Shown here: positions 1 to 18,207 of the stretch, one piece after another
Numbering within the stretch: the stretch's first letter is position 1
How the letters are laid out: each line of letters begins with the position of its first letter
Origin: a virus
IMG/VR virus record: IMGVR_UViG_3300017781_000180
Coordinates: 1-21,076 of that record
Reading direction: 5' to 3' (one strand)
DNA: 21,076 nucleotides
The notes under the pieces: model-generated
What the model saw: only the letters and a program-made list of their open reading frames with translations
Told to the model about the DNA's origin: nothing
Database searches by the model: none
Position numbers and translations under genes: made by a program

Positions 1-269
1 CAATGTTAGAAGCAGGTCATCCTAATTTAACTATGATAGAAGCAATGGCTGCAGGCCTTCCAGTTATAGCTGATTGGGAAAAAGAAGTTGATCTACATGG
101 ATGTTGGAGATCTCCTCGTAATGTATTTGAAATGGATAAAGGATTAAAAAATATTTTAGATAAATGGGAACTTTATAAATTAAATTGTTTAAAAACTTCT
201 ACTGAATTATCGTGGTTTAATCGTACAAAAGAATTAATAAAAATATATAATGAAAAAAGTTTTAATTAA
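1..269 (+). CDS. Glycosyltransferase group 1 (GT4-type), C-terminal part, 5' truncated
   Basis: The first 269 bases hold the last ~89 codons of a gene that begins upstream of the window; the ATG at 3 is probably internal. The visible part carries the typical C-terminal signature of GT-B fold group-1 glycosyltransferases: EAGHPNLTMIEAMAAGLPVI near residues 3-22, where the E...E pair normally contacts the nucleotide-sugar donor, followed by the closing helices. Such enzymes move a sugar from a nucleotide-sugar to an acceptor in the cytoplasm. The acceptor cannot be read from this fragment. Its stop overlaps the next gene, a TibC/Aah-type glycosyltransferase, by 20 nt, so the two are probably translated together and may act in one glycosylation route. 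Family is fairly sure, substrate unknown. Confidence 0.72.
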   Translation, partial: MLEAGHPNLTMIEAMAAGLPVIADWEKEVDLHGCWRSPRNVFEMDKGLKNILDKWELYKLNCLKTSTELSWFNRTKELIKIYNEKSFN

Positions 270-1449
270 AGAATATAATAATCTTAAAAAGATAATAAAA
301 AAACCTTTATTTCCTAATAATAATGTTTATTGTACTTTTATTAATGGAGCTAAAGTTGAAATTTTAGGAGAAATAAATAAAAAATATAATGTTCAATTTA
401 TTGATCAATTAGATAATTCAATTGTTCATGAAACTGAAATAAAAAATAATATGTGGTCTAAATTAAATAAACAATATTTTATTGATTGTTTAGTTAAGGT
501 AACAGATTTAGATACTAATGAAGTTATAGAACATAAATATGATGCGAAAGATAAAACAGTATACATTCATTTTGCTTCTAAAGCATTAGGTGATACTATA
601 GCTTGGTTTCCATATGCAGAAGAATTTAGAAGAAAACACCAATGTAAATTAGTAGTATCTACTTTTCACAATAAAATGTTTGAAGATAATTACCCAGATA
701 TAAAATTTATTGAACCTGGTACCCCTCAAGATGGTTTATATGCTATGTATGAAGTTGGGTGGCATTATGATGAAGATGAAAACATTGACCATAATAGAAA
801 TCCTTTAGATTTTAGAAAAATACCATTACAAGGAGCTGCTTATGATATATTACGTTTAGATAATAAAGAAATTAAACCTAATTTAACTTACAAAAATGTA
901 GGATCAACAATAAAAGGTAAATATGTTGTAATAGCCCCCCATGGTTCAGCTCATGCTAAATATTGGAATCATAAAAATGGATGGCAAACTGTAATAGATT
1001 ATTTAAATAATAAAGGTTATAAAGTAGTAATGATTACCCAAGAACCTTTAGGAGATGAATGGCATGATTCTAAATTAGGAGGTACTCTAACAGGAGTTGT
1101 TGATAAAACAGGTAATCATCCTTTAAGTGAAAGAGCTAATGATATAATGAATGCCCAAGCTTTTATAGGCATTGGAAGTGGGTTAAGTTGGTTAGCATGG
1201 GCTTTAAATACTCCTGTAGTAATGATTTCAGGGTTTAGTGAAGCATATAGTGAATTTGAGGATTGTGAAAGAATAACCTCTCCCCAAAATAAATGTTCAG
1301 GATGTTTTAATAGATTAAGATTAGATGGAGGAGATTGGGAATGGTGCCCCGATCATAAGGATTCTGATAGAATGTATGAATGTACTAAGTCTATTACTCC
1401 TAATATTGTAATAGATGCTATAAATCGTCAATTAGAAAAATCTTCCTGA
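250..1449 (+). CDS. TibC/Aah-like (BAHT family) protein O-glycosyltransferase
   Basis: This 399-aa protein matches the layout of the bacterial autotransporter heptosyltransferases (TibC, Aah), which attach heptose to Ser/Thr of strand-loop-strand beta-helical proteins. Visible parts are an N-terminal beta-rich domain (about 25-100), the LGDTIAWFPYAEEF segment (113-126) whose Asp (D115) corresponds to the family's catalytic Asp, a donor-site segment HGSAHAKYWNHKNGW (231-245), and IGSGLSWLAWAL (308-319). A C-terminal four-cysteine cluster (C349, C352, C366, C378) matches the iron-binding finger known in TibC. Length is close to the family's ~400 aa. The ATG at 250 overlaps the upstream glycosyltransferase by 20 nt and preserves the whole N-terminal domain. 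The next gene, 26 nt downstream, is a probable fibre, a plausible substrate. Sugar identity cannot be told from sequence; heptose is only the family precedent. Confidence 0.85.
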   Translation: MKKVLIKEYNNLKKIIKKPLFPNNNVYCTFINGAKVEILGEINKKYNVQFIDQLDNSIVHETEIKNNMWSKLNKQYFIDCLVKVTDLDTNEVIEHKYDAKDKTVYIHFASKALGDTIAWFPYAEEFRRKHQCKLVVSTFHNKMFEDNYPDIKFIEPGTPQDGLYAMYEVGWHYDEDENIDHNRNPLDFRKIPLQGAAYDILRLDNKEIKPNLTYKNVGSTIKGKYVVIAPHGSAHAKYWNHKNGWQTVIDYLNNKGYKVVMITQEPLGDEWHDSKLGGTLTGVVDKTGNHPLSERANDIMNAQAFIGIGSGLSWLAWALNTPVVMISGFSEAYSEFEDCERITSPQNKCSGCFNRLRLDGGDWEWCPDHKDSDRMYECTKSITPNIVIDAINRQLEKSS

Positions 1450-1458
1450 TATTTATAA
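1449..1458 (+). promoter_or_regulatory. Candidate late promoter, ATATTTATAA box
   Basis: An exact ATATTTATAA sits 17 nt before the ATG of the fibre-like gene and overlaps the stop of the glycosyltransferase. The same 10-mer recurs before other structural genes at 6111, 7772 and 10401. No -35-like element is shared between the copies. The role as a late promoter is inferred from recurrence and position. Confidence 0.55.
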
Positions 1459-1475
1459 CAAAATTCTAGAACAAC

Positions 1476-3449
1476 ATGGCAATAACTCTCTCCAATTCAG
1501 GAATCACTTCAGGTTCAGTAGTAAAATCTGCTGAAGTATCACAATCAATAGATGCTTTTGCGGGTTTAGTAGCTTATGATATTCACCAATCAGGATCTTT
1601 TAATCAAACAGGATCTACAGTTTTATCTGGTTCAGTTAGTCTTGCAAATAACACCCATTTAGGCATTGGAGCTATAGCCAACCCACAATATCCAATTTAT
1701 GTAAAAGCTCAAGATTCTACTGATGATCCTGTAATTTTATTAGAAGGATTTGATGTAGCGGATTCAGCAACTTTAGGTTTTAAAAATGCTGATATAAGAT
1801 GGAATATAGGATTATTTGGAGGAAGTTCAGATTCATTTCTGCTTCAAAATCAAGAAACAAATACATACCCTCTTTTAGTAGATTACTCTTCTTCTAATGG
1901 AATTGTAATGAGAAATGATACAGGTACAGCTTTATTCCAAAAAGTAGGTATTAATTGGCCTTATGGTGAGATGGGATTAACAAATCCAAACCATACACTT
2001 TTAGTCAGTGGATCAATTACAGCTTCAAGTGGGTTTCATGGAGAACTTGTAGGTACAGCTGCTCAGGCTGATAAAGTTTATACGGCTACTGCAATTGCAA
2101 ATTTCACTAATCCTGTTTTGTTTAAACCTGGGGTAGGGCTTGATGAGTATTCTACAGCTATGGTTGATATAAATAACTTAACTTATAATAGTGCTACAGG
2201 GGTACTAAATGGACTTATAACTAATGCAGAAGCAGCAACCTCAGCATCTTATGCTCTATCAGCTTCCTATGTATTAATTTCAACAGCATCTCAAGCTTCA
2301 ACATCATCAGTAATTTCCTTACCAGAGAAAAAAATTCCATTTGGAAATAGTGTAGGAGTAAGTACATACCATTCAAACCTTGAATATGACCATGCAGCAA
2401 CAATGTTCTATGCTCCAAATGCTACAGTTGATGGTAATGTTAGTGCATCAAGTTTTTCAGCATCTAAGTTAGATAGTGCAACAAGTGAAGAAATAAGAGG
2501 AACATTTGACGCAAGTACTCTATATTTCAGTCGAAACCAAGCCACATATTTAGGTAATAGAAATACAGGATCAAATGCTAATTTAACAGTAGTAGTAGGA
2601 GGTCCTAGTTCAGTTACATACTCAGCATTAATAATTAATAAACACCAAGAATTAACATTTGGTAACCCTGGGACTAGTTTTGATTATCCTTTAGGTTATA
2701 GTGTTGGTGAATTTAATTCATATGCTCAATTTGAGAATAATAATGAGTTATCAGCATCATGTGTTGCTATAAAAGGAGCAACTGGTGCTGATGGTATTTT
2801 ATATTTGGGGGGTAGTAATGAATATGGAGGTGGTATTTTACATCATGGAAGTGATTTAGGATCAAATATTCCAGGTACATTTGAGGAATCATCAACAACA
2901 ATATATAGAAGTAGTAAATCGGTAGCAGAACCTGTAATAGACTTCCCTACAGATAATAACCATGTTATGGTTAGATTAGATAATACTCCTGTAAGTAATA
3001 CCAATTTAGATTACTTTGGTATGGGGCCTGTAGGAGGTGCTGCTCAAAAACCATGGAAAAAAACTTTTATGTTACAAGGTGCTATTACCTCAAACAGTTC
3101 TGCAGTTTCTTTAGGTCAAGTACAGGTTAGTGGAGGAGGTGCTTATATGGTTAAATTTACAGTAATGAAAACCGAAAATGCATCCCCAATAACTAGATGT
3201 TTAGTACAAGAAATTACAAACTGTTTTGTAATAGCCTCTAGTCAAATTGGAACTAACCCAACAGCTTTAATAAATGGATCAACCCCTACAGCTGTTAATA
3301 TTCAAGCTTCACTTGGAACTATAAGTACAACCCAAACAATATCTATTGTATCCGGTGGTTTTGATTTCCGTAGTACAGGTAATGTTGGAGCTAGTATAGT
3401 TCATAATGGATTTGTAGAAATAACATTTACCCCTTACAGTATAGTATAA
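1476..3449 (+). CDS. Probable tail fibre / virion appendage protein
   Basis: A 657-aa protein rich in Ser, Thr, Gly, Asn and Ala, with no transmembrane segment and almost no charge clustering. The N-terminus (ITLSNSGITSGSVVKSAEV) and the SGSITASSGFHGELVGTA stretch (near 177-196) are in the style of fibre and appendage proteins of large aquatic myophages. The last ~120 residues (from about 535) are beta-strand-like with alternating small and hydrophobic residues, fitting a distal tip or trimerisation domain. It lies between two glycosyltransferases and the tail sheath, and starts 17 nt after an ATATTTATAA box. Its many Ser/Thr residues make it a candidate acceptor for the upstream TibC-like enzyme. 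Function as a fibre is inferred from composition and context; a head or collar fibre is also possible. Confidence 0.55.
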   Translation: MAITLSNSGITSGSVVKSAEVSQSIDAFAGLVAYDIHQSGSFNQTGSTVLSGSVSLANNTHLGIGAIANPQYPIYVKAQDSTDDPVILLEGFDVADSATLGFKNADIRWNIGLFGGSSDSFLLQNQETNTYPLLVDYSSSNGIVMRNDTGTALFQKVGINWPYGEMGLTNPNHTLLVSGSITASSGFHGELVGTAAQADKVYTATAIANFTNPVLFKPGVGLDEYSTAMVDINNLTYNSATGVLNGLITNAEAATSASYALSASYVLISTASQASTSSVISLPEKKIPFGNSVGVSTYHSNLEYDHAATMFYAPNATVDGNVSASSFSASKLDSATSEEIRGTFDASTLYFSRNQATYLGNRNTGSNANLTVVVGGPSSVTYSALIINKHQELTFGNPGTSFDYPLGYSVGEFNSYAQFENNNELSASCVAIKGATGADGILYLGGSNEYGGGILHHGSDLGSNIPGTFEESSTTIYRSSKSVAEPVIDFPTDNNHVMVRLDNTPVSNTNLDYFGMGPVGGAAQKPWKKTFMLQGAITSNSSAVSLGQVQVSGGGAYMVKFTVMKTENASPITRCLVQEITNCFVIASSQIGTNPTALINGSTPTAVNIQASLGTISTTQTISIVSGGFDFRSTGNVGASIVHNGFVEITFTPYSIV

Positions 3450-3490: not shown

Positions 3491-3736
3491 ATGACAAAAT
3501 TATCAAATGAAGAAATAAAAAAAGTTAGTGAATTAAAATTAACTTATTCTAAGTTAGTAGAATCCCTAGGAACACTAGAAATTCAACTTATTAATTTAGA
3601 TAACAAAAAACAAGAACTTAAAGTGGAATTGTTAAAAGTTCAAAATGAAGAACTAGAACTTGCTAAAGATTTAGAAAAAAAATATGGTAGTGGAACTATT
3701 TCTTTAGAAACTGGTGAATTTTCTCCAGATAAATAA
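3491..3736 (+). CDS. Small coiled-coil protein of unknown function
   Basis: An 81-aa protein. Residues about 4-65 are almost all helical with Leu/Ile spaced in heptads (LSNEEIKKVSELKLTYSKLV and onward), so a coiled coil is likely. It ends in a short Gly/Ser tail with GTISLETGEFSPDK. There are no cysteines and no signal peptide. It sits between the fibre-like gene and the tail sheath in the same direction, with 41 nt before it and 52 nt after it, so it is probably a late gene, perhaps an assembly factor or minor virion component. The role is not recognisable from sequence. The leader reads TATAACAAAAATAAA, like part of the late-box leaders elsewhere in the window. Confidence 0.6.
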   Translation: MTKLSNEEIKKVSELKLTYSKLVESLGTLEIQLINLDNKKQELKVELLKVQNEELELAKDLEKKYGSGTISLETGEFSPDK

Positions 3737-3788: not shown

Positions 3789-6095
3789 ATGGCAGAAACA
3801 TTAATTTCCCCAGGAGTATTAGCAAGAGAAAATGATCAATCCCAGATTACTTCTCAACCAATACAAGCCGGAGCAGCAATAGTAGGACCAACAGTTAAAG
3901 GTCAAGTAAATATTCCAAAGCTTATTACTACTTATAGTGAGTATCAAGCTAATTTTGGTACTACCTTCGAAAGTGGGTCAGCAAATCAATTAAGTGAATA
4001 TACTTTCTTAACATCTATCTCAGCTTATAATTACTTCCAAAATGGGGGTACTTCATTAATTGTTACTAGAGTAGCTTCAGGTTCATTTACCCCAGCTTCC
4101 TCATCAGCAATTTTAAATGATGTTGAAAGTGGAGAAATTCCAGTAGGAACAAATTTATTCTCACAAACCTCTGGTGGTGATGGAGGTAGTGCTATATTCT
4201 CAGGATCAGCTGCATTTACAGGTGGTTCAGGTACAGGATTAACATTAACAGCTCAAACAACTTCAGGTAGTGGTAAATTAATTGAAGGTTCATTATTAGT
4301 CCAAACAAGTGGTGTAGGTTCAGATTATGATGTAATGGCTGGTACAGTAGTAGCACCTACAGGTGGAACTAATAGTGGTACAGGAGCAACATTTACATTA
4401 ACATTTGCAGGAGGTGCAGGAGCATCTACCTTAACAGCTATTACAGCAGCAACAACAGGTTCAGGATATGTTCAAGGTGATACTTTTATATGGTCATCAA
4501 CAGCATTAAATACTGCAATTGGTTCTGGTACTGGTACTGGTGATTTAACATTAACCTTAACAGCTGCAGGATTTTTTGTAGAATTAACAGGAGTTAATGC
4601 TTTAACAGCTGGAACAGGATATGTAGTAGGAGATCAATTAGTAATTGCAGGTGCTACTTTAGGAGCAGGAGCATCAGCTGCAACTATTACATTAGCAGAT
4701 GCTAATATTACAGATTCAGATGCATTTGTATTAGAATCAATTGGTCAAGGTGAAATAATGAATAGCTCAGGAGCTGAAAATTCTCAAGGTGCTTTAACAA
4801 ATGGAACATCAGATAATTTAAGATGGGAAATTACATCACCTAACACTTCTTCAGGTACATTTAGTGTAGTAATTAGACAAGGTAATGATAACACAAGAGC
4901 TAAATCAGTACTTGAAAGCTTTAATAATGTATCATTAGACCCAAAATCATCAAATTATATTTCAAGAATAATTGGTGATCAAACACAAGTAGTAAGAGGA
5001 TCAGGAACAGATGTTTATTTACAAACAACTGGATCTTATGCTAATGCTTCAAGATATGTAAGAGTAAAACAAGTTAATTTTAAAACTCCAGATTATTTAG
5101 ATAATAGTGGACAAGCAAAATCACAATATACAGCTTCAATCCCAGTAGCAGCTTCAGGAACATTTGGAGATGCAGTAGGTAGTATTTTAACTGGAACTGG
5201 AAAATATTATGAAGAAATTGATGGTAATGATACTCAAGGATTAGTTGGAGCTAATTATACAACAGCATTTAATTTATTAGCAAATAAAGATGACTTTAAA
5301 TATAATATTATTTCAACACCAGGTTTATACCAATCAGATTATAGTTCAGTATTAAATACTTTAATAGCAAATACTGAAAATAGAGGTGATAATATTGTAG
5401 TATTAGATCTTGAAGCTTATGATTCTTCAATAACAGCTACAACAACAACAGCAGCTAGTAAAGATACTTCATATGCAGCTTCATATTGGCCTTGGTGTAT
5501 GGTAACAGATCCAGATTCAGGACAAAGAGTTTGGGTACCAGCAGGAACATTAATTCCAGGAGTATATGCTAATAATGATAGAACAGCAGAAGCTTGGTTT
5601 GCACCAGCAGGTATTAATAGAGGTGGATTAGGTCAAGTAATTCAAGCTGAAAGAAAATTAACTCAAGCTAATAGAGATGAGTTATATATTAATAAAGTAA
5701 ATCCAATTGCAACATTCCCAGGTAGAGGAGTTGTAGTATTTGGTCAGAAAACATTACAAAATACAGCAAGTGCTTTAGATAGAGTAAATGTTAGAAGATT
5801 ATTAATAGCTCTTAAAAATTACATTTCACAATTATCTGATAATTTAGTATTTGAACAAAATACAGCAGCAACAAGAAATGTATTCTTAAGTCAAGTTAAC
5901 CCATATTTAGAATCAGTACAACAAAGACAAGGTTTATACGCGTTTAAAGTTGTAATGAACGATTCAAATAATGGACCCGATGTAATTGATAGAAACGAAT
6001 TAAGAGGTGCTATATACATACAACCTACTAAAACGGCTGAATTCATTTACTTAGATTTCAACATTCTACCAACAGGAGCTGAATTTCCTGCATAA
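3789..6095 (+). CDS. 18: Contractile tail sheath protein (T4 gp18-like) with a Gly-rich insertion
   Basis: A 768-aa sheath protein. The N-terminus has the family opening (ISPGVLARENDQSQI, then AIVGPTVKGQ and a YSEYQANFG segment), and residues ~80-95 give YNYFQNGGTSLIVTRV. The C-terminal core has GRGVVVFGQKTL, NVRRLLIALKNYI, and a final domain rich in conserved polar/aromatic positions (YLESVQQRQGLYAFKVVM, NELRGAIYIQPTKTAEFIYL). It is about 110 aa longer than T4 gp18 (659 aa). The extra length appears to lie in a Gly/Thr/Ser/Ala-rich stretch around residues 120-315, with two related units containing GYVQGD (226-231) and GYVVGD (277-282), 51 residues apart. Six copies per ring would surround the tube made by the next gene and contract during injection. 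The start follows a variant late box. Confidence 0.93.
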   Translation: MAETLISPGVLARENDQSQITSQPIQAGAAIVGPTVKGQVNIPKLITTYSEYQANFGTTFESGSANQLSEYTFLTSISAYNYFQNGGTSLIVTRVASGSFTPASSSAILNDVESGEIPVGTNLFSQTSGGDGGSAIFSGSAAFTGGSGTGLTLTAQTTSGSGKLIEGSLLVQTSGVGSDYDVMAGTVVAPTGGTNSGTGATFTLTFAGGAGASTLTAITAATTGSGYVQGDTFIWSSTALNTAIGSGTGTGDLTLTLTAAGFFVELTGVNALTAGTGYVVGDQLVIAGATLGAGASAATITLADANITDSDAFVLESIGQGEIMNSSGAENSQGALTNGTSDNLRWEITSPNTSSGTFSVVIRQGNDNTRAKSVLESFNNVSLDPKSSNYISRIIGDQTQVVRGSGTDVYLQTTGSYANASRYVRVKQVNFKTPDYLDNSGQAKSQYTASIPVAASGTFGDAVGSILTGTGKYYEEIDGNDTQGLVGANYTTAFNLLANKDDFKYNIISTPGLYQSDYSSVLNTLIANTENRGDNIVVLDLEAYDSSITATTTTAASKDTSYAASYWPWCMVTDPDSGQRVWVPAGTLIPGVYANNDRTAEAWFAPAGINRGGLGQVIQAERKLTQANRDELYINKVNPIATFPGRGVVVFGQKTLQNTASALDRVNVRRLLIALKNYISQLSDNLVFEQNTAATRNVFLSQVNPYLESVQQRQGLYAFKVVMNDSNNGPDVIDRNELRGAIYIQPTKTAEFIYLDFNILPTGAEFPA

Positions 6096-6148: not shown

Positions 6149-6637
6149 ATGGCAGTATTAGACCCAAACGAAATATTTTTCACCGCTTTTGAACCAAAAG
6201 TAGCTAATAGGTTCATAATGTATGTTGATGGTTTTCCATCCTACATTATTAAAGGAGTTAGTGGATTAGGATTTGCACAAGATGAAATTACATTAAATCA
6301 TATCAATACTTATAGAAAAGTTAAAGGTAAGTTAAGATGGAATGATATCACTATGCAACTATTTGATCCAATTACTCCATCTGGAGCCCAAGCCGTGATG
6401 GAATGGGTAAGATTACACCACGAATCAGTAACTGGTAGAGATGGTTATAGTGATTTCTATAAGAAAGACTTAACTATTGATGTATTAGGTCCTGTAGGTG
6501 ATGTAGTATCTGAATGGATTATCAAAGGTGCATTTATTAAAGATGGTTCATTTGCTGATATGAATTGGGATACTGATGGTGAAGCAATGAATATTGATTT
6601 AACAATTGGAATGGATTACTGCGTGTTAAATTTCTAA
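6149..6637 (+). CDS. 19: Tail tube protein (T4 gp19-like)
   Basis: A 162-aa protein, almost the same length as T4 gp19 (163 aa), directly after the sheath gene as in T4. Recognisable features are an N-terminal PNEIFFTAFEPKVANRFIMY, the FPSYIIKGVSGLGF strand (about residues 29-42), the YRKVKGKLRWNDITMQLFDP segment, and a C-terminal MNIDLTIGMDYCVLNF strand. This is the tube-fold signature of stacked hexameric rings that line the DNA channel. It is followed within about 26 nt by an intrinsic terminator, so the sheath-tube pair can be made in excess over the baseplate genes downstream. The identification is strong. Confidence 0.93.
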   Translation: MAVLDPNEIFFTAFEPKVANRFIMYVDGFPSYIIKGVSGLGFAQDEITLNHINTYRKVKGKLRWNDITMQLFDPITPSGAQAVMEWVRLHHESVTGRDGYSDFYKKDLTIDVLGPVGDVVSEWIIKGAFIKDGSFADMNWDTDGEAMNIDLTIGMDYCVLNF

Positions 6638-6738: not shown

Positions 6739-7485
6739 ATGGAAGAATTAAAACTCCCTACTGAACAAGTAGATTTACCTTCAAAAGGATTAGTATATCC
6801 TACTGATAATCCCTTATCCTCGGGAAAAATCGAAATGAAGTACATGACCGCTAAAGAAGAGGATATCTTAACAAACCAAAACTATATTAAAGATGGATCT
6901 GTTATTGATAAACTTTTAAAATCATTAATTGTTACTAAAATAAATTATGATGATTTAATTGTTGGAGATAAAAATGCTATTATGGTAGCTGCTAGGTTAT
7001 TAGGATATGGTAAAGATTATACCTTTATGTATGAAGGTGAAGAAATTACAGTAGATCTATCAGAATTAGAACAAAGATTTATTGATGAGGAAAAATTAGT
7101 AGAAAAAAATGTAAATAATTTTGAATTTACTTTACCTCATTCAAAGGTTGAGATTACTTTTAAGTTACTTAACAATAAAGATGATAAAAAGATTAAAGGT
7201 GAAGTTAAAGGATTACAAAAATTAGATAAAAAATCATCACCTGAATTATCAACTCGTTTAAAATATATGATTACATCTATAAATGGTAACAGTGATGTAA
7301 AAACTATTAGAGAATTTGTAGATAATTATATGTTAGCCAGAGATTCAAGAGCGTTTAGAGAATATGTAAAAACATTTCAACCAGATATTGAAATGAAATT
7401 TAACCATGAGAGTAGTGACGGCGTTGAAAGGGATATCACCCTTCCAATGACCGTCTCGTTTTTTTGGCCTGACACCGACCTATAG
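6739..7485 (+). CDS. 26: Tail assembly chaperone / baseplate hub gp26-like, zero-frame product
   Basis: A 248-aa protein in the T4 gp26-like baseplate/tail chaperone style: N-terminal LPTEQVDLPSKGLVYP with the short strand KIEMKYMTAKEEDILTN, a helical middle (IVTKINYDDLIVGDKNAIMV, AARLLGYGKDY), and a C-terminal helical domain ending ITLPMTVSFFWPDTDL. It lies just before the tape measure gene, the usual place of the tail assembly chaperone. The frame runs into TTTTTTT at 7459-7465. The downstream frame is open from 7451 to 7762 and carries clearly protein-like sequence, so a fraction of ribosomes probably switches frame and makes a ~340-aa extended product. The start at 6739 is supported by the CAAATAAAATTTAT leader. 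Assignment to gp26 is by sequence style and position, so moderate. Confidence 0.75.
   Translation: MEELKLPTEQVDLPSKGLVYPTDNPLSSGKIEMKYMTAKEEDILTNQNYIKDGSVIDKLLKSLIVTKINYDDLIVGDKNAIMVAARLLGYGKDYTFMYEGEEITVDLSELEQRFIDEEKLVEKNVNNFEFTLPHSKVEITFKLLNNKDDKKIKGEVKGLQKLDKKSSPELSTRLKYMITSINGNSDVKTIREFVDNYMLARDSRAFREYVKTFQPDIEMKFNHESSDGVERDITLPMTVSFFWPDTDL
7459..7465 (+). other. Probable programmed frameshift site, T7 run
   Basis: Seven T in a row, read TTT TTT TGG in the incoming frame. Moving +1 (or -2) gives TTT TTT GGC and enters the frame that stays open to 7762. Both frames are open together only over 7451-7482, and this is the only slippery run inside that window. A one-base sequencing or assembly error in the run would look the same. 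Confidence 0.65.
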
Positions 7486-7797: not shown

Positions 7798-10401
7798 ATG
7801 GCTAAAAAGGAAGACGTTCAAAATCAAAAAGATCTTAATGAAGAACTCAGAAATGAGATTTCTTTAGAGGAGCAAATACTATCCCTATTAGCTGATAGAA
7901 GAGGTATAGACTCTGAAATAATCTCAGACCAACAAAATTTAAACAATGTTCTTATAGATCAGGTAAAGAACATGAATTTTGAAGTAGTTCAAAGAAAACA
8001 AATTAGAGATTTAAGTGCATCCGTTACTAAAATAGCAAATGAAGCTTATTCTATTGGTAAAGATCAATTAGGTCTTACTGAAACCAATGTTAGTATTGCA
8101 AAACAGCAAGAAGCATTAACTAAAAACATATTTCTTTTAGAACAACAAAGAAAACAATTAATAGCAGCTATTAATGATGGTACAGCTACTGATGCTGAAT
8201 TAAATGCTGATATAGCTCAATCAATTTCTGATCAAGTTAAAGAAGCTAAAAATCTTAAAAATCAATTAGCAAAAGTAGCAAAAAATTCTGAAGAAATTAG
8301 TGATAACCTTGGAGTATCAGCTTTTGGGGGCCTTGATGAGGTGTTGGGTAAGTTGGGAATGGGGAAAATTGGTAAGCAACTAGGAGTAGAACAAGCTGCA
8401 GAATCAGCAAGAGGAATGGCTCAAAATCTTCAAGAAGCCATGAATATGGATGGTAGAAAGCTTACCAAAAATAAAATCAAAGAATTAGGTCTACAAAAAG
8501 AATTAAATGGTTTAACTCATAACGCTGCAAAAGCTAGGTTAAAAGGTATGGGGGGCATGAAAAAAGGAATGATAGCCCTTAAAGCAGGATTTAAAACTAT
8601 GTTTGCTATAGCTAAAAAGATGTTAGGTCCTATTGGTCTTATTGTTGAAGCTATTCAAGCTATTATAAGAGTAGATAAAGCATCAGGTGAAGTAGCAAAA
8701 GCCATGGGGACTTCCGCAGCTAGAGCAAGAGAAATTAATGCTGAAATGGCAGATGCTGCTTCTAACTCTGGGGATTTATTGGTAACTACTCAAAAGGTAG
8801 TAGCTGCAAATATGGAACTTAATAAAATATTTGGAACAGCTGTAGTAATGTCTGGAAAACTAGCTGCTGAATTTGCTGCTGTAAAAGAAAGAACAGGTTT
8901 ATCAGGACATGCCATGGAAGTGTTTGCGGAAAAAGCACTTTTATCTGGTACATCAATTACTAAACAATTAGAAAAAGTTAGAGGGGTTACTATGGAATTA
9001 AGTGCCCAAACTGGTATAATGCTTAATGCTAAAGATATTCAAGAAGGTATTGGACAAATGTCTAAAACACAGATGTTAAACAACCAGATGAATACTAAAG
9101 AAATGGCTAAACAAGTATTCCAAGCTAAAATGTTAGGTCTTTCTCAATCCCAATTAGAAAGTACTCAAAATAGTCTATTAGACTTTGAGAGTTCTATAGC
9201 AGCTGAAATGGAAGCTGAATTATTAACTGGTAAACAACTTAATTTAGAAGGAGCTAGAGCAGCAGCACTAGCAGGAGATCAAGCAGCATTAGCAGCTGAA
9301 CTAAGAAAAGAAGTAGGTACAGCAGCTGAATTTGGTAAAATGAATGTTATCCAACAGGAAGCTATGGCTAAAGCATTTGGTATGTCTCGTGAAGACATGG
9401 CAGGGATGTTAATAGAACAAGAAAAATTAGAAGCAATAAAAGCCCAGGGTTTTAAATCAGCTAGTGATGCTCAAAACCAATATAATGAAGCTCTAGAAAA
9501 CGGTACTATGACCGAAGAGCTTAAAAATAAATTAATCAAAGCTGGTGTACATGAACAAATGGCATCTGCAACCCAAGCAGATAAATTAGCTGCTACTATG
9601 GAAAAATTAAGTGATTTATTTGTTCAGTTAATGGACCCTTTAATGCCTATATTTGATGCAATAATAAATGTTTTAAAACCTGTAATGGCTATACTAGCCC
9701 CAGTAGCAAAACTATTAGGGGATATAATTGGTTTAGTAATGAAAGTTGTTAAACCCTTTATGGATTTTATGTCAGGTAATATGGCAGAATTTGCTGATAT
9801 ATTTACAGGTATATTTACTCTTGATGGCGAAAAAATTATGGGTGCTGTAAGTGGAATTATGGGTAATGTAGGTCAGTTAGTAACTGATGTTATTGTATCT
9901 CCATTTAAATCAATTGGTGGATTTTTTAGTGGTCTATTTGGAGATGAACCTGAAACTCCGGATGTACCTCAATTAGCTTCAGGAGGTATTGTAACAAAAG
10001 CTACTATGGCTATGATAGGTGAAGGTTCAGAACCAGAAGCTATTATTCCTTTAAGTAAATTATCTTCAATGATGCCTAGTGGGATGGATATGGGTAATTC
10101 ATTAATGAAAGCAGTTACAGCTCCAATGAGAGCAATAGGAAGTTTAATACCATCAGAAGGTATTCAATCTTCAATATCATCATTTGAAGAAGACCCAATG
10201 GGTAGTATAGGAAATATTTTTTCAAGTGCAAAAGAAGGTATTTCAAATATATTTGGGGGTAATGATGAAAAATCTAATAATGATGAAGTAGTAGTACTAC
10301 TAAAAGAATTAATAGTAGCTGTTAAAGAAGGTGGGGATGTATTTATTGATGGAGCTAAAGCAGGTAAATCATTAGCATTGGCAACTTCCAAAATGGGTTA
10401 A
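7798..10401 (+). CDS. Tail tape measure protein
   Basis: An 867-aa protein with tape measure architecture. Residues ~1-175 are a long helical, coiled-coil region. Around 250-290 comes a hydrophobic helix block (MFAIAKKMLGPIGLIVEAIQ), then a Met/Ala-rich helical middle. A second hydrophobic block at ~605-660 (MAILAPVAKLLGDIIGLVMK) may be the part that inserts in the host membrane. From ~727 there is the typical C-terminal motif GGIVTKATMAMIGEGSEPEA followed by IIPLSKL. It follows the chaperone and precedes baseplate genes. T4 gp29 is 590 aa; using the usual ~1.5 Angstrom per residue, this length would fit a tail near 130 nm (inference). It probably sets tube length inside the growing tail and leaves ahead of the DNA. 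Confidence 0.88.
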   Translation: MAKKEDVQNQKDLNEELRNEISLEEQILSLLADRRGIDSEIISDQQNLNNVLIDQVKNMNFEVVQRKQIRDLSASVTKIANEAYSIGKDQLGLTETNVSIAKQQEALTKNIFLLEQQRKQLIAAINDGTATDAELNADIAQSISDQVKEAKNLKNQLAKVAKNSEEISDNLGVSAFGGLDEVLGKLGMGKIGKQLGVEQAAESARGMAQNLQEAMNMDGRKLTKNKIKELGLQKELNGLTHNAAKARLKGMGGMKKGMIALKAGFKTMFAIAKKMLGPIGLIVEAIQAIIRVDKASGEVAKAMGTSAARAREINAEMADAASNSGDLLVTTQKVVAANMELNKIFGTAVVMSGKLAAEFAAVKERTGLSGHAMEVFAEKALLSGTSITKQLEKVRGVTMELSAQTGIMLNAKDIQEGIGQMSKTQMLNNQMNTKEMAKQVFQAKMLGLSQSQLESTQNSLLDFESSIAAEMEAELLTGKQLNLEGARAAALAGDQAALAAELRKEVGTAAEFGKMNVIQQEAMAKAFGMSREDMAGMLIEQEKLEAIKAQGFKSASDAQNQYNEALENGTMTEELKNKLIKAGVHEQMASATQADKLAATMEKLSDLFVQLMDPLMPIFDAIINVLKPVMAILAPVAKLLGDIIGLVMKVVKPFMDFMSGNMAEFADIFTGIFTLDGEKIMGAVSGIMGNVGQLVTDVIVSPFKSIGGFFSGLFGDEPETPDVPQLASGGIVTKATMAMIGEGSEPEAIIPLSKLSSMMPSGMDMGNSLMKAVTAPMRAIGSLIPSEGIQSSISSFEEDPMGSIGNIFSSAKEGISNIFGGNDEKSNNDEVVVLLKELIVAVKEGGDVFIDGAKAGKSLALATSKMG

Positions 10402-16947: not shown

Positions 16948-18207
16948 ATGTTTTGGTTAGTAGAATCTGAAGATCAAATAAAAAGGTTTTTTCAAAGTAG
17001 TTATAAGGAAGCATTTGTAGAAATAATTCCATATAATGACACCATACACCCTACCCAAAATCAAGTATGTGCTATTTATATTCGTCCGTTAGTATCAACT
17101 AAAGGATTTATATTGCCCATTTCCCATAGTGAGACTATTAATGTTAATATTGACAATATAAAACATATATTATCAAATTATGATGCGTTGTATGTGCGTG
17201 ATAAGAAGGAATTTTTACATTATTTTCCTTTAAAAACTCTTTATGACATTACATTACATTCTCATACGTATATACGACAAACAACACAAACCCATTCCTA
17301 CTTCTACAATAAAATGGGGGATAAAAAAGATATAAACCGCATTATTCCGATAGTAAAACATTATGAATATTGTGAAAATCTATTTAATGAATTAAAAGAA
17401 AAAATAAATGAGCCAATCAACAACTTTTACAACAACAAAGCCACAGTGGTATTCAACGCCTTGGAGCAAAGTGGATTACGAATTGATAGAGAAAAATTCG
17501 AATCGTACTTTCACGATGTCAATGGAGATTACGTCTACACCCAATTCAACTTCAAAACACTTACAGGAAGACCAAGCAACAAATTTAGGGGAGTAAATTA
17601 TGCCGCACTTAATAAAGAAAACGGATCAAGAGAGTGTTTTATCCCTCGTAATAGTACTCTTGTTGAGCTTGACATTAGCGCTTATCACCCTACTTTGTTG
17701 GCTAAGTTGGTGGGTTATGATTTTGGTGATAAAGACATTCATATGGCCTTTGCGGAAATGTATGGAGTTGATTATCAAAAAGCAAAAGAATTAACATTTA
17801 AGCAGCTATACGGAGGAGTTTTTGATCAATATAAAGATCTGGAATTTTTTAAGAAAGTTCAAGTATATACTGATGATTTGTGGGCTCGTTTTCAAAGTGA
17901 AGGCTACATTGAATGTCCTATTTCAAAACACATATACAAACGAGATGAATTAGATAATATGAAACCTCAAAAACTATTAAATTATGTACTCCAAAACTTG
18001 GAGACATCAATGAACATTTGTATATTATGGGAAATATTTAAGATCTTAAAGAGTGCAAATACTAAGTTAGTACTTTACACTTATGATTCATTCTTATTTG
18101 ATTTTGATAAAAATGAAAAAGATCTTTTAAATAAAATAAGTGAAGTTTTTAAAAATAAAAAATTGCAAACAAAGATAAATTATGGAAATACATACGACTT
18201 TAAATAA
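16948..18207 (+). CDS. Compact family-A DNA polymerase-like protein
   Basis: A 419-aa protein with the palm-domain motifs of DNA polymerase I in order: TGRPSN (206-211) leading to NYAALNKENGSRECFIP; motif A LDISAYHPTLLAKL with catalytic Asp D242, then the DIHMAFAEMYGV segment; motif B AKELTFKQLYGG with K280, F284, Y288 and G289 in the places of the O-helix residues; and motif C YTYDSFLFDF with D380. Both metal-binding Asp residues are kept, but the canonical HDE is YDS and the O-helix Arg appears to be Tyr. The usual enzyme is over 550 aa even without the 5' nuclease, so thumb or fingers are shortened. The first ~170 residues may be a worn 3'-5' exonuclease-like domain without clear DxE residues. 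It precedes gp32, UvsX and a 5' nuclease, fitting a replication role. Confidence 0.75.
   Translation: MFWLVESEDQIKRFFQSSYKEAFVEIIPYNDTIHPTQNQVCAIYIRPLVSTKGFILPISHSETINVNIDNIKHILSNYDALYVRDKKEFLHYFPLKTLYDITLHSHTYIRQTTQTHSYFYNKMGDKKDINRIIPIVKHYEYCENLFNELKEKINEPINNFYNNKATVVFNALEQSGLRIDREKFESYFHDVNGDYVYTQFNFKTLTGRPSNKFRGVNYAALNKENGSRECFIPRNSTLVELDISAYHPTLLAKLVGYDFGDKDIHMAFAEMYGVDYQKAKELTFKQLYGGVFDQYKDLEFFKKVQVYTDDLWARFQSEGYIECPISKHIYKRDELDNMKPQKLLNYVLQNLETSMNICILWEIFKILKSANTKLVLYTYDSFLFDFDKNEKDLLNKISEVFKNKKLQTKINYGNTYDFK

Follow-up and report, generated by a model that had tools for sequence, protein, structure and literature searches.

A BAHT-family glycosyltransferase in a phage tail module and its recurrent association with Ser/Thr-rich collagen-like genes

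Why should a contractile-tailed marine phage keep, among its tail genes, a relative of the heptosyltransferases TibC and Aah (the BAHT family), and what would such an enzyme modify? The question arises from a stretch of viral DNA of 21,076 bases (the window), which is an entire virus record and, judging by its content, a fragment. It encodes a contractile-tail module with sheath, tube, hub, and tape measure. The BAHT gene lies within this module, as the initial annotation, made from the letters alone, had proposed. The features are as follows.

3..269, plus strand: GT4-type glycosyltransferase, C-terminal 88 aa, cut by the contig start; clusters with GT4 proteins of ~318 aa that lie upstream of BAHT in 72 loci
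250..1449, plus strand: BAHT-family O-glycosyltransferase (TibC/Aah-like), 399 aa, ATG start; D115 as base, K237/R295/W314 as donor site, C349/C352/C366/C378 as iron finger
1476..3449, plus strand: Ser/Thr-rich fibre-like protein with the conserved N-terminus SNSGIT..VSQS.DAF, from the neighbourhood map
3491..3736, plus strand: small predicted coiled-coil protein; its cluster occurs in 64 loci and precedes the sheath in most loci
3789..6095, plus strand: tail sheath (phrog_23, E=7e-68); its Gly/Ser/Thr-rich insertion differs in length from one homologue to the next
6149..6637, plus strand: tail tube protein (phrog_4542, E=2e-22)
6739..7485, plus strand: baseplate hub subunit (phrog_150, E=1e-10)
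7798..10401, plus strand: tape measure protein (phrog_34082, E=4e-13)

A full-length homologue of the truncated GT4 protein (L001:6269-7225) matches Glycos_transf_1. ORF 3-269 and the start of the BAHT gene overlap by 20 bases, so the two are probably co-translated.

The product of ORF 250-1449 is a member of the BAHT family by sequence and by fold. In a profile search it matches TIGR04414 (hepto_Aah_TibC) at 324 bits (E=1.1e-96), against a curated cut-off of 200 bits, and this model outscores the LPS heptosyltransferase models by far; the nearest solved structure by sequence is TibC (4rap; 212 bits, E=1e-61). The AlphaFold2 model, calculated from a 39-row alignment (pLDDT 90, pTM 0.85), has the TibC fold, that is, an N-terminal β-barrel and a GT-B catalytic core. 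Foldseek returns TibC chains at the top (E ~1e-38, TM 0.82-0.87), the next GT9 match reaching only E 5e-11. Thus, the profile and structure comparisons that had been suggested along with the BAHT assignment both bear it out, and a better match to a GT9 family outside BAHT, which had been named as contrary evidence, was not seen. PHROGs contains no family for this protein.

In TibC, Asp-110 is catalytic and K230, R286, and W305 are donor residues; the structure paper also names T226 (donor), P300 (stereoselectivity), the Cys iron finger, and the thumb, whose hydrophobic tip, F265 and V266, serves dodecamer assembly (PMC4358343). The phage ORF is as first described, with 399 aa, the LGDTIAW segment at residues 113-119, and all four Cys. 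D110 of TibC corresponds to D115, K230 to K237, R286 to R295, W305 to W314, and C339, C342, C358, and C370 to C349, C352, C366, and C378, respectively. D115 and the four Cys are invariant in 39/39 homologues. The claim that all key residues are kept therefore holds for D115, K237, R295, W314, and the Cys, but not for T226, which is S233 (a conservative change), P300, which is G309, or F265/V266, which are D269/E270. Position 300 differs between TibC and AAH too (PMC4358343), and since it is variable between them, it is not family-defining. In addition, F368 of TibC is Y376 in the phage protein.

The thumb region of the model is a short helix with no strand pair, where TibC has a β-hairpin. The hydrophobic thumb residues on which TibC depends are exchanged for others here, so a TibC-like dodecamer cannot be assumed for the phage enzyme, which must assemble and handle its acceptor in another way. 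Full-length superposition of the model on TibC suggests that the four Cys would come together, the pLDDT being 67-83 over much of this region. The pairwise dN/dS of the gene, 0.16-0.33, points to purifying selection, and together with the conserved residues it suggests, as was proposed at the outset, that the enzyme is probably active.

Relatives are encoded in at least 596 IMG/VR stretches, and the gene cassette to which the enzyme belongs recurs in hundreds of phage contigs. Gene maps of the first 80 fetched loci and the window reveal a conserved order: an enzyme of ~650-900 aa, a GT4, often a methyltransferase, the BAHT, a variable fibre, the coiled-coil protein, the sheath, and the tube. 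This cassette is conserved in nearly all fetched loci, and in the great majority the BAHT gene is fixed inside the tail operon. The ~650-900-aa enzyme has a GT4 domain, to which the longer form adds a GT25-like C-terminus, weak when taken alone (12/13 members, best E 8e-6) and with no PDB match; PHROGs holds no family for the 900-aa form. The methyltransferase is of FkbM type or class I and is sometimes fused, as in the 568-aa BAHT–methyltransferase of locus L007, and a few cassette loci have a carbamoyltransferase. Judged by the sheath, the nearest isolate is a Flavobacterium phage, and this phage lacks the cassette.

Variants of this arrangement were also encountered. In Microcystis phage Mel-JY01, a 1226-aa protein deposited as an FkbM methyltransferase (L082:4750-8430) is a GT4-like N-terminus fused to a full BAHT (residues 864-1224), and a long collagen-like frame at 2-3052 of the same locus is annotated only in part. 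A distant BAHT type, with 34-38% identity and usually within proteins of ~760-1250 aa, occurs in L143, L184, L230, L236, L242, and L253, in sheath-linked cassettes without S/T-rich collagen genes. Three BAHT contigs in bacterial MAGs (L089, L090, and L096; Flavobacteriales, Winogradskyella, and Chloroflexi) bear cassette or tail genes of phage type and are probably phage contigs binned with their hosts.

What, then, is the acceptor? The strand-loop-strand repeat TIGR04415, the acceptor of the AIDA/TibA type, was found in none of 14 related phage records and none of five related MAG or chromosome assemblies, and the word "autotransporter" in the first description is therefore misplaced as an acceptor label for this branch. 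The recurrent neighbour of BAHT is a long Gly-X-Y collagen-like protein, giant, Ser/Thr-rich, and almost Pro-free. The repeats were located by a windowed count, as a strict regular expression misses most of them. Pfam Collagen (PF01391) matches over its cut-off in the proteins of relatives L055, L076, and L569 (E=8e-148, 1e-161, and 0, respectively), and the PHROGs matched are mostly annotated as tail fibre, although such repeats match many such families. The absence of a collagen-like gene from the window is explained by the contig's end at base 1, and we infer that its phage carries one beyond that end.

The association is recurrent. Where a BAHT locus includes 1.5 kb or more of sequence upstream, the collagen-like gene immediately precedes that of the 900-aa enzyme in 53/63 cases; the ten exceptions include truncated contigs and loci with the repeat on the opposite flank of BAHT. 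With sheaths collapsed at 90% identity and a minimum of 8 kb required on the upstream side of the sheath, an S/T-rich collagen-like gene lay upstream in 26/29 BAHT modules versus 4/24 BAHT-less ones (p=1e-7, phylogeny ignored). Beside BAHT, Ser and Thr mostly occupy 0.5-0.8 of the non-Gly sites of the collagen-like protein, and Pro, in nearly all cases, ~0.00-0.02. A reverse scan, in which contigs of at least 25 kb were picked by DNA pattern and then searched with TIGR04414 at its cut-off, gave BAHT in 19/47 contigs with (GTS)3G versus 1/38 with (GPQ)3G (p=2e-5), and in 12/20 fetched regions the S/T-rich repeat lay within the same ~20 kb as BAHT. There are exceptions: L003 and L041 have BAHT and no collagen-like gene, L052 has a Pro-containing version, L192 is a BAHT-less phage with a Pro-free S/T-rich collagen gene, and 28/47 of the (GTS)3 contigs show no BAHT over the cut-off. 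The last two observations imply that BAHT is not the only solution.

In three of the four BAHT-less modules that have a collagen-like gene, its product is Pro-rich (0.23-0.28), and a 2OG-Fe oxygenase gene accompanies it in two or more of the three (L148 and L154); where such an oxygenase gene is present, the Pro fraction of the collagen-like protein is 0.11-0.28. Oxygenase genes of this 2OG-Fe(II) type were seen in several cassettes (L041:3809-4450, L041:4453-5046, L148:5077-5670, and L236:3376-3987), with matches to PF13640 in L041:4453 and L148 and to DUF6445 in L041:3809. Some lie near Pro-rich collagen-like genes, and it is possible that they are phage prolyl hydroxylases.

The same pairing occurs in bacterial chromosomes. 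BAHT over the cut-off is found in 11/151 Methylococcaceae genomes, and in four chromosomes a phage-like BAHT (43-46% identity) adjoins a GTSG protein; most of these proteins have a signal sequence, as predicted by eye. TIGR04415 is absent from these four genomes, and no sheath stands beside BAHT. Overall, 7/8 phage-like BAHTs of this family adjoin GTSG proteins, mostly secreted by prediction, whereas 4/4 canonical ones adjoin strand-loop-strand giants with VNSGGTEVVSSGG-type repeats (by eye). A GTSG neighbour had been predicted beforehand for four unseen phage-like BAHTs and was present in three (L611, L613, and L614, not L612); the strand-loop-strand neighbours of the canonical genes had likewise been predicted. 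The hydrophobic thumb tip is kept in the canonical sequences and missing from the collagen-type ones. In the tree, a fully supported branch of 1.6 changes separates the canonical group, and the methylococcal collagen-type group sits with phage Mel-JY01; several branches are long, and the deep order is unsure.

It is therefore rather probable, in our judgement, that the phage BAHT modifies the collagen-like fibre of its own phage by O-glycosylation of Ser/Thr, most likely with heptose, and that other enzymes extend or cap the glycan. From the genomic association we infer the acceptor, the sugar, and the stabilising role. In the infected cell, BAHT would move heptose from ADP-heptose onto Ser/Thr of the Gly-X-Y fibre, whose gene immediately precedes the glycosylation cassette in most relatives, and the neighbouring GT4 and GT25-like enzymes and methyltransferases would then lengthen the glycan and cap it. 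As the fibres are virtually without proline, the sugar on Thr/Ser may assume the helix-stabilising role of hydroxyproline, giving a heavily glycosylated surface. We hold only tentatively, at a little short of an even chance, a wider proposal: that a largely viral BAHT branch, shared with some methanotroph chromosomes, has Pro-free collagen repeats as its acceptor, that the resulting fibres are O-heptosylated with the sugar replacing hydroxyproline, and that Pro-rich fibre modules may instead hydroxylate via 2OG-Fe oxygenases.

Other targets have to be weighed. The collagen-like gene could be a mere neighbour, the BAHT acting on another virion protein, either the fibre at 1476-3449 or the Gly/Ser/Thr-rich insertion of the sheath; these are physically the closest genes in the window, and in a number of loci the fibre is directly downstream of BAHT. 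However, L001, L005, L030, and L035 are BAHT-positive yet without such a fibre, and many BAHT-positive loci have short sheaths of 567-580 aa, in a range of homologues of 567-900 aa, so that neither is needed. Since phage-like BAHTs and GTSG proteins also go together in Methylococcaceae, with no sheath alongside, we regard this reading as unlikely; the 1476-3449 protein is a possible second acceptor, though missing from many BAHT-positive relatives. Phage-encoded glycosyltransferases often modify the host surface, and the GT9 fold is common to BAHT and LPS heptosyltransferases, which would fit an enzyme that alters a glycoconjugate or protein on the host surface so as to exclude superinfection or convert the serotype. 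Against this stand the fixed position of BAHT inside the tail operon, the far better score of the protein O-heptosyltransferase model over the LPS models, the lack of a strand-loop-strand repeat in the 14 phage records, and the association with collagen-like fibres; we consider a host-surface target very improbable. Thus, of the targets first suggested, namely the phage's own fibre, its capsid, or the host surface, the association with collagen clearly favours the fibre over the other two.

The donor is a separate matter. The fold and cassette might be as described and the donor one other than ADP-heptose, with another sugar transferred, which is compatible with a collagen acceptor. The changes of T226 to S233 and P300 to G309 are in keeping with this, as is the finding of no gmhA in the phage contigs tested; also, the collagen-type enzymes of the methylococcal loci L091, L093, L611, and L614 have another residue where TibC has its adenine-contacting Arg-286, and their donor may therefore differ. 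On the other hand, K237, R295, W314, and D115 are kept in the window's lineage, and an HldE domain-II-like nucleotidyltransferase gene is present in 6/10 large BAHT-positive phage contigs versus 1/8 BAHT-less ones, one of them over the cut-off. In addition, a Flavobacteriales MAG with a cassette contig has strong gmhA-like (194 bits) and HldE-II (184 bits) matches. On balance, a different donor appears somewhat unlikely. A full ADP-heptose pathway of the phage's own is unsupported, no gmhA having been found in the phage contigs tested, and, with the host-side genes of the MAG, the donor, if ADP-heptose, is probably made by the host. A phage homologue of HldE domain II passes the curated cut-off with 183 bits; it lies at L624:7107-7595, on a contig where BAHT and GTS repeats are present as well. 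In the 158-164 kb contigs the corresponding gene scores 102-112 bits, below the cut-off of 181.5, and no heptose-pathway genes were found near it.

How does this proposal compare with known systems? The TibC/Aah enzymes (TIGR04414; PDB 4rap, 4rb4) share with the window enzyme the whole-protein fold, the catalytic Asp, the Lys/Arg/Trp donor site, and the four-Cys iron finger. The window enzyme differs in being phage-encoded, on a long branch from the canonical type, with the thumb tip replaced, with collagen-like proteins in the place of TIGR04415 repeats among its relatives, and with a multi-enzyme glycan cassette. BclA of Bacillus is a glycosylated bacterial collagen-like protein (PMC8968730). 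The phage proteins are likewise Gly-X-Y proteins, with glycosylation predicted, but they are phage-tail proteins whose repeats contain almost no Pro, and in the literature found, no BAHT-type enzyme is described for bacterial collagen-like proteins. Mimivirus, too, has both collagens and collagen-modifying enzymes, among them a galactosylhydroxylysyl glucosyltransferase acting on modified lysine (PMC9546862); that enzyme is unrelated to BAHT, and it belongs to a giant virus that infects amoebae rather than to a tailed phage. As regards stabilisation, glycosylated Thr is credited with stabilising the cuticle collagen of a vent worm (Mann 1996, as cited in PMC6953826), an animal protein whose transferase has no known relation to BAHT. 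In the open-access literature, we found no paper connecting BAHT or heptosyltransferases with phages or collagen-like proteins.

If the collagen-like fibre is indeed the acceptor, BAHT enzymes have natural acceptors of a second class, and phages own a dedicated collagen-glycosylation pathway. The folding of prokaryotic collagen-like fibres without hydroxyproline would then become testable by two-gene co-expression, and a glycan coat on tail fibres would also matter for how abundant marine phages recognise their hosts.

Downstream of the tail genes, the window also encodes a 419-aa protein (16948-18207) with a weak match to DNA polymerase A (E 4e-4), unusually short for a polymerase.
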